DNA of 64,000 nucleotides, taken from contig NZ_JAGTUU010000003.1 in the NCBI RefSeq assembly GCF_018224955.1, positions 186,001 through 250,000 on the forward strand, in the 5' to 3' direction. The notes beneath the pieces are model-generated. The model was given only the letters and a program-made list of their open reading frames with translations. It was not told the origin of the DNA and made no database searches. The DNA is from Thetidibacter halocola. GTDB taxonomy: Bacteria; Pseudomonadota; Alphaproteobacteria; Rhodobacterales; Rhodobacteraceae. Shown here piece by piece: positions 58,011 to 64,000 of the stretch; position 1 is the stretch's first letter, and every line of letters begins with the position of its first letter. A program made the translations under genes and the position numbers.

Positions 58011-58646
58011 TCAGGCGGCGAAGCGTTCGCGCAGATGGGAGAGGTCGGCGTCGACGTCGTCCATGCCCGCTGCGGTCGCGTCCAGCATCTCGGCGCGGCT
58101 GCGCGACCGCACATGCGTCCAGAGCGCGCGTTCAAGGGCGGCGCGAAGGGGCGCGTAATCGGCCCGGGCGAGGCCGGAGGCAACCGCCTTGTCCTCGCGA
58201 AGCCGCGCGAATAGCCGCGCGGCGGTCAGGTTGCCGATGGTGTAGGTCGGGAAGGCCCCGAAATAGTTCTGCGACCAATGCACGTCCTGGAGGCATCCCC
58301 GCGCGTCGTCGGGCAGGTCCAGTCCCAGGTCCTGCCGGATGCCATCTGCCCACATGGCGGGGATGTCGGCCACGGCAAGCGATCCGTCCAGCAGCGCCAT
58401 CTCGATCCGGACGCGCAGCATGATGTGCAGATCGTCGGTCGGCTCGTCGGCCTCGATCCGGATAAAACCGGGCCGCACACCGTTTATCGCGGCCAGCCAC
58501 TCGTCGACGCCCACATCGCCCAACTGGTCGGGGAAGGTATCGCGCAGCCGTCCGAAATGGCGCGCCCAGAAGGGGGCCGAGCGACCGACATGGTTCTCGA
58601 TCAGGCGCGACTGGCTTTCATGCATGCCAAAGCTGGCGCCGCCCAC
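58011..58646 (-). pseudogene. Carboxypeptidase Taq (M32), 5'-truncated remnant
   Basis: About 210 C-terminal residues of an M32 metallocarboxypeptidase, usually near 500. It opens at MHESQSRLIENHVGRSAPFW, the M32 motif that follows the HExxH zinc site, and keeps VHWSQNYFGAFPTYTIGNLT and AARLFARLRED. The N-terminal 60 percent, including HExxH, is gone. A frame stop (58659-58661) and conjugation-gene sequence begin within about 15 nt upstream. The GTG at 58646 is accidental. No activity is expected. Confidence 0.88.
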
Positions 58647-58647
58647 C

Positions 58648-58675
58648 GCGCAGGGTGGTCAGGGTTGCGGGTCAT
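58648..58675 (-). pseudogene. First codons of a probable trbJ
   Basis: In trb operons trbJ follows trbE. Here ATG 58675 overlaps the trbE stop and encodes MTRNPDHPARW before running out of frame into the carboxypeptidase remnant. The identification rests on position and overlap only. It marks the element side of the deletion joint at about 58645-58660. Confidence 0.3.
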
Positions 58676-60776
58676 TCTCTGTCTCCTTCTGGTCGCTGGG
58701 TTGGGGGTTTGGAGTGGGTGACTCAGTCCCGGGTCGGAGCAACTCGACGGCCCAGTCGAGACTGCGATGGCGCAGCCAGGCGGCGGCGAAGCCGTCCCGG
58801 CCATGGCTGGCAAGCAACTCGGTAATGGCGGTCTGTTCGGTCTTGGCGGACGCGGCGGTGAAGGCTAGCGCCACCTCGCCGAGACCCAGCGAGAACAGCC
58901 GGTTGCCGCGGCGCGACTGGCAGTAGTAGTCGTGTTTCGGTGTTGCGCGGGCGACGATGTCGATCTGTCGGTCGTTCAGCCCGAAGTTCTGGTAGATGCG
59001 CGCGATCTGCGGCTCAAAGGCGCGCTCGTTGGGCAGGAATATCCTTGTGGGGCAGCTCTCGACGATTGCAGGCGCAATGAGGGACCCGTCGATGTCGGCC
59101 AGCGATTGGGTGGCGAAGATCACCGATGCGTTCTTCTTCCTCAGGGTCTTCAGCCATTCGCGGAGCTGTCCGCCGAAATTGGCATCGTCCAGCGCCAGCC
59201 AGCCTTCATCGATCAGGATCATGGTTGGCCGCCCGTCGAGCCGGGCTTCGATCCGGTGGAAGAGATAGGCGAGGACGGCGGGTGCGGCCGCCGAACCGAC
59301 CAGACCTTCGGTCTCGAAGGCGAGCACATCGGCGCTGCCCAGTTCCTCGGTCTCTGCATCAAGAAGCCGCCCGAAGGGCCCTCCGAGGCAGAACGGTTTC
59401 AACGCGCGCTTTAACTCGGTCGATTGCAGCAGGACCGAGAGGCCGGTCAGCGTGCGTTCCTCGGGCGGGGCCGAGGCCAACGAGGTCAATGCTGACCAGA
59501 GATGGTCCCGTGCGCTTGGGTCGATCATCGCCCCCTCGCGCCCGAGGATCCCCGCGAGCCAGTCCTGCGCCCAGGCGCGCTCGGACGCCTCATGGATCCC
59601 GGTGAGCGGCTGCAGCTGCACCGCTGGTTCCTCGTCGGCCAGTGCGTCGCCGAGATTTTCCCAATCCCCGCCCATGGCCAGAGTGGCGCAGCGGATCGAA
59701 CCGCCGAAGTCGAAGGCGACGACCTGGGCACCGGCCTAGCGACGGAACTGCAGCGCCATGAGGGCGAGCAGCACCGATTTGCCCGCTCCGGTCGGTCCAA
59801 CGATCAGAGTATGGCCGACATCGCCCACATGTGTGGAGAAGCGAAACGGGGTCTTGCCGTCGGTTTCGGCATGGAAGAGCGGCGGTCCGTCGAGGTGGTC
59901 GTTCCGATCCGGCCCCGCCCAGACTGCCGAGATCGGGATCATATGGGCGAGGTTCAGCGTCGAGATTGGTGGCTGGCGAACATTGGCGTAGAGATGTCCG
60001 GGCAAGGAGCCGAGCCAGGCCTCGAGCGCGTTCAGGGATTCGAGGATGCAGGTGAAATCGCGCCCTTGCACGATCTTCTCTGCTGCCTTGAGCTTCGCTT
60101 CGGCGGTACGGGCATTCTCGTCCCAGACGGTAATCGTCGCGGTGACGTAAGCCGCGCCCGCTACATCGGCACCGAGTTCCTGCAGCGCCTCCCAGACCTG
60201 CTCCTGCCGCGCATGATCAGGATTGACCGTGAAGGCCATGAGCTGGTCGAGCGTCATTTCCTCCTCGGCATAGGCGTCGAGCAGCGACGGTGCGACGGCG
60301 GCGAGCTTCAGCCGCTGCTTGACCACGCTGGCCGAGAGGAAGAAGGCCGCGGCGATTTCCTCCTCTGTGCGGCCCTTCTCGCGCATCGCGTGGAAGGCGC
60401 GGAACTGGTCGAGCGGATGCAGCGGCGCGCGCTGGACGTTCTCGGCCAGGCTGTCCTCCTCGGCGAGCCCATCGGTGCGCACGATGCAGGGCACCAGCGC
60501 GGTCTTGTTCATGCGCTTCTGCTTGACGAGCAGTTCCAGCGCCCGGAACCGCCGCCCGCCGGCGGGGATCGTGTACATGCCGGTCTCGGCACCGCTCTCA
60601 TCCAGCACGGGCCGAACGGTAATGGAGCTGAGCAGCGTTCGCCGCGCGATGTCCTCCGCCAGTTCCTCGATCGACACGCCCGCCTTGACGTGGCGCACGT
60701 TCGACTGGCTGAGCATCAGCTTGTTGAAGGGAATGTCGCGCGAGGCGCTGAGGGTGATCTTCGCTTGCTTGGTCAT
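58659..60776 (-). pseudogene. Chimeric ParB-like::TrbE gene with an amber codon
   Basis: Residues 1 to about 195 (from ATG 60776) are a ParB/Spo0J-type partition protein: VSIEELAEDIARRTLLSSIT, YTIPAGGRRFRALELL, LAENVQRAPLHPLDQFRAF and a KorB/ParB helix-turn-helix. At EALQ (60180-60191) the frame passes without a break into TrbE/VirB4 sequence: LGSLPGHLYANVRQPPISTL, then Walker A IVGPTGAGKS. A TAG at 59736-59738 (after ALQFRR, where TrbE should have a Tyr codon) interrupts it. The same frame then continues AGAQVVAFDFGGS to Walker B MILIDEGWLALDD and the normal TrbE end. The TrbE N-terminus is absent. Confidence 0.85.
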
Positions 60777-60861
60777 CGGGATATCTCCGCGACAGGCCAG
60801 CCGGGAGCCTCTCTCCCGACCTCCAAACCCGTCACGGAAAACCCGGCACCCCTCTTACTCT
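60777..60861 (-). ncRNA. Structured 5' leader of the ParB::TrbE gene (repeat copy 1)
   Basis: The 77 bp at 60785-60861 match 63296-63372 upstream of the DUF932 gene; 60800-60837 differ at one base. As minus-strand RNA, CCGTGACGGG (60837-60828) pairs over 10 bp with CCTGTCGCGG (60796-60787). An inner hairpin CGGGAG/CTCCCG sits inside. The outer stem's 3' arm ends in the Shine-Dalgarno GGAG, so folding may mask the ribosome site. I cannot match it to a named RNA family. Confidence 0.6.
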
Positions 60862-60946: not shown

Positions 60947-61336
60947 ATGGAAAACGTTGTTCTGGAACGTCCTGCGCCGGATCGGCAGGGTGTCGCTCTC
61001 AAGGCCTTCGCCCGGATCGCGGACGCCTGGTCGCTCACCTTGCGTGAGGCGGCGGCACTGGCGGATATGTCGGACTCGACCTGGAAGCGGGCGAAGAAGC
61101 CCGGTTTTGCGGGGGATCTGACGCGGGACCAGATGCTGCGACTGAGTGCGCTGATCGGCCTCTATAAGTCGCTCGAACTCTACTTCAACGAGCCGATTTC
61201 GCGGGACTGGGTGAAGCTGCCTAACCAGGGTCCGGAGTTCGACGGCGCGCGGCCCGTTGACGCGATGATCGAAGGGGGATTGCCCAAGATCCTGCGCGTG
61301 CGGGGCTATGTCGATGCGCTGCGGGGCGGGGTTTGA
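60947..61336 (+). CDS. Xre/MbcA/ParS-type antitoxin
   Basis: 129 residues. The N-terminal Xre-like helix-turn-helix is at about 20-55 (AWSLTLREAAALADMSDSTW). The C-terminal DUF2384 toxin-binding domain is at about 70-125 (LSALIGLYKSLELYF, PVDAMIEGGLPKILRVRGYV, ending DALRGGV). It neutralises the RES toxin encoded next, and its stop overlaps the toxin start (TTGA). Transcribed from the promoter at 60888. Confidence 0.92.
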   Translation: MENVVLERPAPDRQGVALKAFARIADAWSLTLREAAALADMSDSTWKRAKKPGFAGDLTRDQMLRLSALIGLYKSLELYFNEPISRDWVKLPNQGPEFDGARPVDAMIEGGLPKILRVRGYVDALRGGV

Positions 61337-62022
61337 GGATCACGTCGGTCAATGACCGCGCACTTGTCCGGCTGATCTCCGAGACCCATCACAAGCCGCC
61401 CGTGCTGCGGGGACTGGTCGACAGCGACGAGGAGGCCGCGATTCTCGCCGAGATCGAGGGCGAGTCCAGTGCCCGCCTGATCGCCGAGGCGCAGGGCAGC
61501 CCCGCGCTCGACCGCCGCGAACTCGCTTTCGCGCGGCGGTCGCATGACCTCACCCTCTATGGACAGAGCCATATCAACGCGGCCTTCACGTACACGAGAC
61601 CGTCGGGCAACCGCTTCAATACTGGTGACCGCGGTGCCTGGTATTGCGCCTGGGAGATGCTGACGAGCGCGCAAGAGGTCGGGTTTCACCGGACCCGCGA
61701 ACTGGGCTTCATCGGTCGCTACGAGGACGAGGCCCGTTACGTGGAACTGCTGGCGGATTTCATTGGGGACTTCCCGGATCTGCACGGGGAGGCGCATCAG
61801 GCGCTCGATCCGGATCCGGAACGCGGTTATCTGGCCGGGCAGCACCTCGCGGCGGATCTGAGATCAGAGGGGCATCGCGGGCTGATCTACCCCTCATTGC
61901 GCCACCCGGGCGGACGGTGCTTTGTCGCCTTCGATCCCGGGATCATCCAGAATGTCCGTCCCGGCGCGAGCTGGAAGCTGGTCTGGCAAGGTGCGCCCGA
62001 GTTCACGGTCGAGGGGCTATAG
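61333..62022 (+). CDS. RES-domain toxin (NAD+-degrading)
   Basis: 229-residue RES-family toxin. The active-site region reads YTRPSGNRFNTGDRGAWYCA, with conserved Arg and Tyr, then EMLTSAQEVGFHR with the Glu. Family members such as MbcT degrade NAD+ and halt growth when the antitoxin is lost. Start TTG 61333 overlaps the antitoxin stop, a weak start that keeps toxin below antitoxin. The gene looks intact, so the pair may still be active and could explain why this remnant persists. Confidence 0.92.
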   Translation: MRITSVNDRALVRLISETHHKPPVLRGLVDSDEEAAILAEIEGESSARLIAEAQGSPALDRRELAFARRSHDLTLYGQSHINAAFTYTRPSGNRFNTGDRGAWYCAWEMLTSAQEVGFHRTRELGFIGRYEDEARYVELLADFIGDFPDLHGEAHQALDPDPERGYLAGQHLAADLRSEGHRGLIYPSLRHPGGRCFVAFDPGIIQNVRPGASWKLVWQGAPEFTVEGL

Positions 62023-62096: not shown

Positions 62097-63287
62097 TCAT
62101 ACCTTCTCCAACAACACCTTCGCCTTGCCCTCCATCACCAGCCGCGCATCCTGCTGCGGCTTCGACCGGGCCACCGCGGTGATCCCCTGCACGAAATCAA
62201 AGACGCTCTCGGGCGGGCGGCCCTCCTCGGCGAGCACCGTCTCGACGATCCGCCCGGTCTCCGCCTTCGAGAACCCGCGCTTGCGGAGGAAGTCCTGCCG
62301 GTCCTCGTCCGACCGCGCGACGATCTTCTCGCGCGCCGCGCGGATGCCGTCGATAAACGGCGCGGGAGAGGACTCGGCGAAGCGGCTGAGCGCCGGCGCG
62401 GCCTCATGCGCGAAGCGAGAGGCGGCGTATTTCGAGTGCCGGATCGTGATCTCCTGGAAGTCCTCGACGCCCCAGAGGTTGCGGTTCTGGCAGACCGCGC
62501 GCAGGTAGAAGCTGGCGATGCCGAGCGTCTTAGCGCCCACCTCGGAATTCCAGCAGTAGAACCCCCGGAAATAGAGGTCGGGTGAGCCGTCGGGCAGCAG
62601 CCCCGCCTCGATGGGGTTCAGGTCATCGACGAGGAACAGGAACACGTCGCGGTCCGAGGCGTAGAGCGTCGTTGTCTCCTTCGTCACGTCCGCGCGCGGG
62701 TTGTAGATGCCGGTCGACCAGTCGAGCACGCCGGGGACCTTCCAGCGCGTGTCGCCGGTGCCGTTTCCCGCGATGCGCTGGATGGCGGAGACCAGTTCGT
62801 GGTCGTAGATGCGGCCGTAATCGGGGCCGGTCACCGCACGCAATTCCGTCCGGCCATCCGTGACTTCCATAGTCTTGATTTGCTCTGCCCGGTGGTTGGT
62901 CAGCCCGTATTGCAGGTTGATGCCCGCCAGCGGCGCGGGAAGCTGCCGAAGATAGGCCGCGGGCGCGCCGACGAGGCTTGAGAGCTGACCGAAGGACCAA
63001 TGCGTCGGCGCGATCGGCTCATCCGCCCCCGGCAGGACCAGCCCCAGCCTCTCCGGGTTGTCGCGATGCGCCTCGACCCGGATCGCCGCGCTTTCCACGG
63101 TGCGCGTCCGGCTCCGCTCCGCCCGGCCCTTGACCGAGGCGAAAAGGTCGTCGAGCGACAGGAACCGCTCGTCATCCGGCCGCGAGAACCACTCGGACGA
63201 CACGCGGTCCACGTTTGTGCCGCGCGACACATCCACCCTGTAGCCGCCGCTCATGTCACGCCCGGCATCGATGATTTCGGTCTTCAT
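62097..63287 (-). CDS. DUF932 domain protein
   Basis: 396 residues of the DUF932 / phage-plasmid-like family common on alphaproteobacterial plasmids and integrative elements; function unknown. Visible segments are WFSRPDDERFLSLDDLFASV, HWSFGQLSSLVGAPAAYLRQ, YGRIYDHELVSAIQRIAGNG and FYLRAVCQNRNLWGVEDFQE. It starts at ATG 63287 directly after the structured leader shared with the ParB-like gene. It is convergent with the RES gene across a 74-bp gap that holds the palindrome GAGATTATCTC (62051-62061). Confidence 0.9.
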   Translation of the reverse strand: MKTEIIDAGRDMSGGYRVDVSRGTNVDRVSSEWFSRPDDERFLSLDDLFASVKGRAERSRTRTVESAAIRVEAHRDNPERLGLVLPGADEPIAPTHWSFGQLSSLVGAPAAYLRQLPAPLAGINLQYGLTNHRAEQIKTMEVTDGRTELRAVTGPDYGRIYDHELVSAIQRIAGNGTGDTRWKVPGVLDWSTGIYNPRADVTKETTTLYASDRDVFLFLVDDLNPIEAGLLPDGSPDLYFRGFYCWNSEVGAKTLGIASFYLRAVCQNRNLWGVEDFQEITIRHSKYAASRFAHEAAPALSRFAESSPAPFIDGIRAAREKIVARSDEDRQDFLRKRGFSKAETGRIVETVLAEEGRPPESVFDFVQGITAVARSKPQQDARLVMEGKAKVLLEKV

Positions 63288-63372
63288 TGGGAAACCTCCG
63301 CGACGGGCGGCCGGGAGCCTCTCTCTCGACCTCCAAACCCGTCACGGGCCGGGACGGCACCCCTCTAACTCT
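63288..63372 (-). ncRNA. Structured 5' leader of the DUF932 gene (repeat copy 2)
   Basis: Second copy (63296-63372) of the leader found before the ParB-like gene. The outer 10-bp stem is CCGTGACGGG (63347-63338) with CCCGTCGCGG (63307-63298). Here a G-C pair replaces the G-U of copy 1, so the pairing is kept although the base differs. The inner hairpin has one A-C mismatch. GGAG of the ribosome site again lies at the foot of the stem, 8 nt before ATG. Confidence 0.6.
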
Positions 63373-63376
63373 CCGA

Positions 63377-64000
63377 TCACTCGGCTGCGCGGGTCTCGAG
63401 CGGGGAAGGGGCGCGCGACGCGGCGAGCCAGTGCAGCGTTTCCGGGCGGATATGCGTGTACCGGCGCAGCATTTTCCAATCCTTGTGGCCGGTGACCAGC
63501 GAGACTTGCTCGATGGCGAAGCCGGCCTCGAACAGGCGGCTTGTGCCTTCATGGCGCAGATCGTGGAAATGCAGGTCCTTCACGCTGACCTCGACGCAGG
63601 CGCGCCGGAAGGCCGTTCCGACCGATCTCGAGTTATAGGGAAAGATCCGGCCTCTTGCGTGCCCGAGTTCCTTGGCCTGTTCAGTGACCAACGCCCAGGC
63701 ATCGAACCCCGTGGCGGCGAATAGTGGGATCCGCTGGTCGTTCCCGGTCTTGTTGCGCGGGTCCTTCCTATCGCGGATCATGAGCATTCGGCGGTCGACG
63801 TCGAGATCAGTCCATTCGACGCGGCAGATCTCGTCGAGCCGCATGGCCGTGGCCACCGCGAACTTCACGATCCGTGTCATCGGCAGGGTCAGGCGTTCGT
63901 TGTCATCGAAGCAACGGAAGAGGCGGTTCAACTCATCGGTGGTGGGGCGACGATCCCGCTCCGTGCCTTTGCCGATCAGCCCGAGACGCTTGAGCGCGAC
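63377..64000 (-). CDS. Tyrosine recombinase / phage-type integrase (5' partial)
   Basis: C-terminal catalytic part of a tyrosine integrase; the frame stays open to base 64000, so the N-terminal DNA-binding domains lie outside the window. Catalytic residues visible: Arg in AVATAMRLDEICRVEW, Lys in RDRKDPRNKTGND, HDLRH, a His in VTGHKDWKML and Tyr in RRYTHIRPETL. The full R-K-H-R-H-Y set is present, so it may be active. It sits 4 nt beyond the DUF932 leader and probably belongs to the same element. Confidence 0.93.
   Translation of the reverse strand, partial: VALKRLGLIGKGTERDRRPTTDELNRLFRCFDDNERLTLPMTRIVKFAVATAMRLDEICRVEWTDLDVDRRMLMIRDRKDPRNKTGNDQRIPLFAATGFDAWALVTEQAKELGHARGRIFPYNSRSVGTAFRRACVEVSVKDLHFHDLRHEGTSRLFEAGFAIEQVSLVTGHKDWKMLRRYTHIRPETLHWLAASRAPSPLETRAAE

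Follow-up and report, generated by a model that had tools for sequence, protein, structure and literature searches.

An in-frame ParB–TrbE chimera in Thetidibacter halocola as the probable scar of a collapsed, dusA-integrated conjugative element

In the 64,000 nucleotides of the Thetidibacter halocola genome analysed here (the window), one minus-strand reading frame begins as a ParB-like gene and continues as trbE. Does such a frame encode a chimeric protein, or is it what a deletion has left behind? The frame runs from 60776 to 58659 and contains only one internal stop, a TAG at 59736–59738; residues 1–195 are ParB-like and from residue 196 onwards the frame reads as TrbE (Table 1). An earlier note on this DNA had described an in-frame ParB::TrbE chimera that is split by an amber codon just after Walker A. 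Profile matches and DNA homology on each side of the joint agree with this description almost to the base, and the TAG is found between Walker A and Walker B. The switch lies inside the 12-base word GAGGCGCTGCAG (60180–60191), which encodes EALQ.

Table 1. Features around the chimeric frame, in window coordinates
Feature	Position	Strand	Basis or remark
M32 carboxypeptidase gene, 3' half, PF02074 positions 281-489	58011..58646	-	profile match
Deletion joint 2: trbJ start to middle of M32 peptidase gene	58646..58653	-	homology with relatives
trbE 3' part: NF010447 470-807, Walker B-like ILIDEGW, open to normal stop	58659..59735	-	
In-frame amber codon	59736..59738	-	sense codon here in five TrbE relatives
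trbE internal part: NF010447 positions ~322-467, Walker A GPTGAGKS	59739..60179	-	profile match, relatives
Deletion joint 1: 12-base word GAGGCGCTGCAG (EALQ), common to both parent genes	60180..60191	-	
parB-like gene, 5' part: residues 1-195, N-terminal domain and HTH region	60192..60776	-	profile matches, relatives
Leader copies, 83% identical	60773-60861 and 63284-63372	-	
Xre-type antitoxin gene of element	60947..61336	+	equal place in relatives
RES-domain toxin gene of element	61333..62022	+	equal place in relatives
DUF932-like gene of element	62097..63287	-	weak, below PF06067 cut-off; phrog_1362 E 8e-45
Tyrosine integrase, C-terminal part in window	63377..64000	-	gene continues to contig C16:250573

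When residues 1–195 were compared apart from residues 200–346 and the downstream frame, as had been proposed, the former matched ParB models (TIGR03734, E 1.1e-17; TIGR00180, E 1.6e-15; NF010406, E 4.9e-13) and the latter the TrbE model NF010447. Intact plasmid homologues of the first part are annotated as ParB/RepB/Spo0J. Since two curated cut-offs are narrowly missed (25.8 against 26.3 bits for PF02195 and 57.3 against 58.45 bits for TIGR00180), ‘ParB-like’ is a safer name than ‘partition protein’. The TrbE match covers model positions 318–467 in residues 196–346 (E 3.3e-84) and positions 470–807 in the frame past the amber (E 3.8e-164), which is otherwise intact TrbE; the trbE part has no frame break besides the amber. 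Tested at full length, trbE reaches 850.7 bits over positions 311–807 with one stop, below the cut-off of 1020 bits, and the gene is truncated and broken. Walker A (GPTGAGKS) and the Walker B-like motif (ILIDEGW) do not stand in one uninterrupted frame, as the amber lies between them. This codon appears to be a loss-of-function substitution that would have arisen later than, or separately from, the deletion. From what is known of the VirB4 family, a working ATPase of this type is not expected, with the first ~317 TrbE positions missing and the two Walker motifs on opposite sides of the amber.

To locate the joint, we used relatives from 397 genomes of the same family (Rhodobacteraceae); the genome collection contains no further genome of the same genus. 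Matches to ParB alone stop at residue 199–200 (up to 98% identity) and matches to TrbE alone start at approximately residue 186–192 (up to 91% identity), whereas a match across all 346 residues is found only in the T. halocola genome itself. The residues that follow EALQ thus do not belong to ParB proteins, as the alignment to ParB relatives ends with residue 199 or 200. At the DNA level, ParB homology in the best relatives (92–94% identity) reaches position 60180 and TrbE homology (85–86% identity) starts at position 60191, so that the 12 bases in between belong to both genes; the homologies overlap exactly where the earlier note had placed the switch. Immediately past the word, the DNA of the ParB relatives diverges.

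Undeleted elements, which the earlier note had suggested looking for, are present in three genomes of other genera in the family (G174, G071 and G178). In these, parB and trbE are separate genes on the same strand, at a distance of 20.1 kb in G174, 31.3 kb in G071 and 34.2 kb in G178. In agreement with the earlier note, both families have EALQ at the corresponding positions in the relatives, and G071 contains the exact 12-base word in both genes and in the same frame (offset 585 in parB, offset 1068 of the trbE open stretch). In a simulation with the G071 genes, a randomly placed parB/trbE joint shared at least 12 bases in about 1 of 100,000 cases. The proposed origin by deletion between two copies of one coding word is therefore upheld by an undeleted element that has both copies. 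The intact parB-like gene encodes 709 aa in G071 and G178. In G174, whose element is otherwise similar, the parB-like gene (L044 from 4412) encodes 309 aa, and because of this difference in length it may have been broken independently.

The kept frame across the joint would also suit a natural, conserved ParB–TrbE fusion gene that is used by some elements. However, no such fusion was found in the 397 family genomes, no record among 72,556 plasmid records covers 80% of the region (at ‘near’ sensitivity), and the degenerate pattern QVWEALQELG has no match in 84,980 species genomes or in viral contigs, in scans from which the records of the genome itself may be omitted. The joint thus occurs only in the T. 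halocola genome in the collections searched. Furthermore, the amber interrupts the frame, and the nearest relatives have both parents intact and separate. Within the reach of these collections a conserved fusion is refuted, and we give this explanation practically no credence. An assembly artefact, in which the contig was falsely joined at the repeated word, is extremely improbable. The draft assembly consists of 22 contigs, which leaves room for such a join; however, the missing parB and trbE halves and the interior of the element, including the tra/trb genes, were not found in the remaining genome although it is rated 100% complete, which speaks against misassembly. In addition, a 12-base word is shorter than the usual assembly overlaps.

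We thus return to a deletion. In the undeleted relatives the order is dusA, integrase, DUF932-like gene, RES/Xre pair, parB-like gene and, after 20–34 kb, trbE. Here, a first deletion has removed the middle of the element, from parB codon 199 to the matching trbE codon. The two copies of the word probably recombined illegitimately or mispaired by slippage. The frame would have been kept because both copies are in the same reading frame; for any joint, the chance of frame retention is about 1 in 3.

The far end was lost by a second deletion, whose joint the earlier note does not mention; it begins shortly behind the trbJ start and reaches into a gene for an M32 peptidase. Downstream of trbE, homology to the trbJ start runs to approximately 58646–58650, and M32 homology is found from approximately 58653–58649. 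The two sides share at least CGG and up to about 8 bases with a mismatch, and here the frames of trbJ and M32 disagree. Because the M32 gene is cut to its 3' half and the 5' half was not found in the genome, a single loss seems to have taken the M32 5' half along with the far end of the element and the attachment site there. A second M32 gene, different and intact, is present on contig C1. The truncated M32 gene may have been the original flank of the element. When M32 and HtpX genes were sought beside dusA in the relatives, G048 alone had one of the M32 genes upstream of dusA and equally oriented, at a distance of ~14 kb, so that the host arrangement before the deletion is one that we infer.

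The other end of the element is preserved. From joint 1 toward the window end, the Xre/RES pair is followed by the DUF932-like gene, the tyrosine integrase (L009 9378–10574; PF00589, E 2e-22) and dusA, which lies just beyond the window end (C16:250579–251571, L009 10580–11572; PF01207, E 3e-80). The integrase gene ends 6 bases before dusA, which places a tyrosine recombinase directly against the dusA 5' end. In G178, dusA is accompanied by these genes in an identical order, and an integrase adjoins dusA in G071, G031 and G126. A stretch of approximately 45 bases that leads up to the dusA start and extends beyond it is almost the same in T. halocola, G178, G071 and G031, and dusA itself is only 63–77% identical in protein among the element carriers. 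The island thus supplies a new dusA 5' end. In G071, a 21-base attachment core at both ends delimits an element of 52.7 kb. No second copy of this core is present within the window, which fits a decayed dusA island and not an intact one; with the second attachment site missing, the element cannot excise by the normal route. No tRNA or Rfam matches were found around the integration site.

Two further observations concern the same element family. In G126 (L050 15887–16712), the DUF932-like gene matches in three frames and the integrase match is partial, which suggests that this may be another decaying copy. Elsewhere in the T. halocola genome, one long match (G000:C22:216012-217870; 89%) was considered as the rest of the element and rejected, as it corresponds to genes of moeA-like and mobA-like type and contains no transfer genes. 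In G178, their counterparts are found past the trb genes, where they may be cargo of the element or belong to the host DNA close to its end.

We conclude that the locus is very probably a dead scar, the remnant of a dusA-integrated conjugative element that measures ~53 kb between its attachment sites in G071 and has shrunk to ~6 kb here. The RES/Xre pair and the shared promoter-proximal part may account for the persistence of the dusA-side end. The chimera is best read as a microhomology deletion scar, an ordinary fossil of genome decay, and a young one. Changes found only in the window are mostly synonymous in TrbE, with 6 synonymous to 5 nonsynonymous before the amber and 43 to 23 after it. 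Since this is in the range of intact relatives, most of the divergence preceded the damage and the scar is young; in ParB, 0 synonymous and 2 nonsynonymous changes are too few to judge. That decay is barely visible in trbE fits a recent event and is not in itself proof of lost function.

The earlier note had weighed a dead scar against a product in which ParB is fused to a linker and Walker A. The scar is much better supported than the working protein, and a functional chimera is unlikely. It is very unlikely that the 346-residue N-terminal product, whose ParB-like head would bind DNA and whose tail comes from TrbE, is both made and active, for example at the promoter of the element itself or as a subunit that poisons related elements. 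In favour of such a product, the start and the leader upstream of it are conserved and undamaged, nothing is missing from the ParB N-terminal domain and HTH region, and in protein the ParB part is 97–98% identical to intact relatives. However, this high identity is equally expected from a recent deletion, the joint is unique to one genome, and the TrbE tail, which stops just past Walker A, would not form a complete fold. The product could be made, but nothing points to selection for it. That the fusion is expressed and serves the host or the remnant as a ParB-like regulator with a TrbE-derived tail, for example by hindering related incoming elements, would be a highly improbable outcome.

The leader itself comprises ~60–70 bases that immediately precede the start codon, once at the parB-like and once at the DUF932-like gene; in G174, G071 and G178 either site has it in conserved form. 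It folds into a long bulged hairpin with 21 predicted pairs, two of which have a change on both sides. The leader occurs in 77 plasmid records, many of them from genera of Rhizobiales and Rhodobacterales, and a comparison to Rfam with E values up to 0.5 gave no match. It is possibly an undescribed RNA leader or a protein-binding site, and it promises more than the ParB–TrbE joint, which reveals no new kind of system.

The locus shows, at the resolution of single bases, the collapse of a conjugative element. After two deletions, both at short words common to the two sides, what remains is the dusA-side end and the toxin–antitoxin pair in it, and by chance one of the deletions has produced an open chimeric frame. 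For annotators, it is a caution that an in-frame ParB–TrbE ‘fusion’ can be a scar.

Lastly, we compared the locus to known systems. Known dusA-specific genomic islands give dusA a new 5' end, have 21-base flanking repeats and carry dusA-associated integrases (PMC4482086). As in these islands, the integrase stands here against the dusA 5' end, the upstream stretch and new dusA start are nearly identical among carriers, and the 21-base attachment core is matched in the relative G071; some of the islands also bear conjugation genes. Unlike them, the locus retains only the dusA-side end and has lost most of the element, the other attachment site included. TrbE is the VirB4-family ATPase of P-type conjugation systems (NF010447/PRK13873), and its relatives are found in ordinary trb operons, as on plasmids NZ_CP115927 and NC_014007. 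Although positions 318–467 and 470–807 are matched here, ParB sequence takes the place of the preceding part and an amber separates the two Walker motifs. Residues 1–195 are up to 98% identical to large plasmid proteins of the ParB/RepB/Spo0J type (~700 aa), which are encoded beside DUF932-like genes in an equal gene order, whereas ~510 C-terminal residues are gone here. Finally, in microhomology-mediated (illegitimate) deletions that fuse genes, the joint lies in a short word that is present once at each parental breakpoint, as it does here, and the present case differs from these only in its kept frame.
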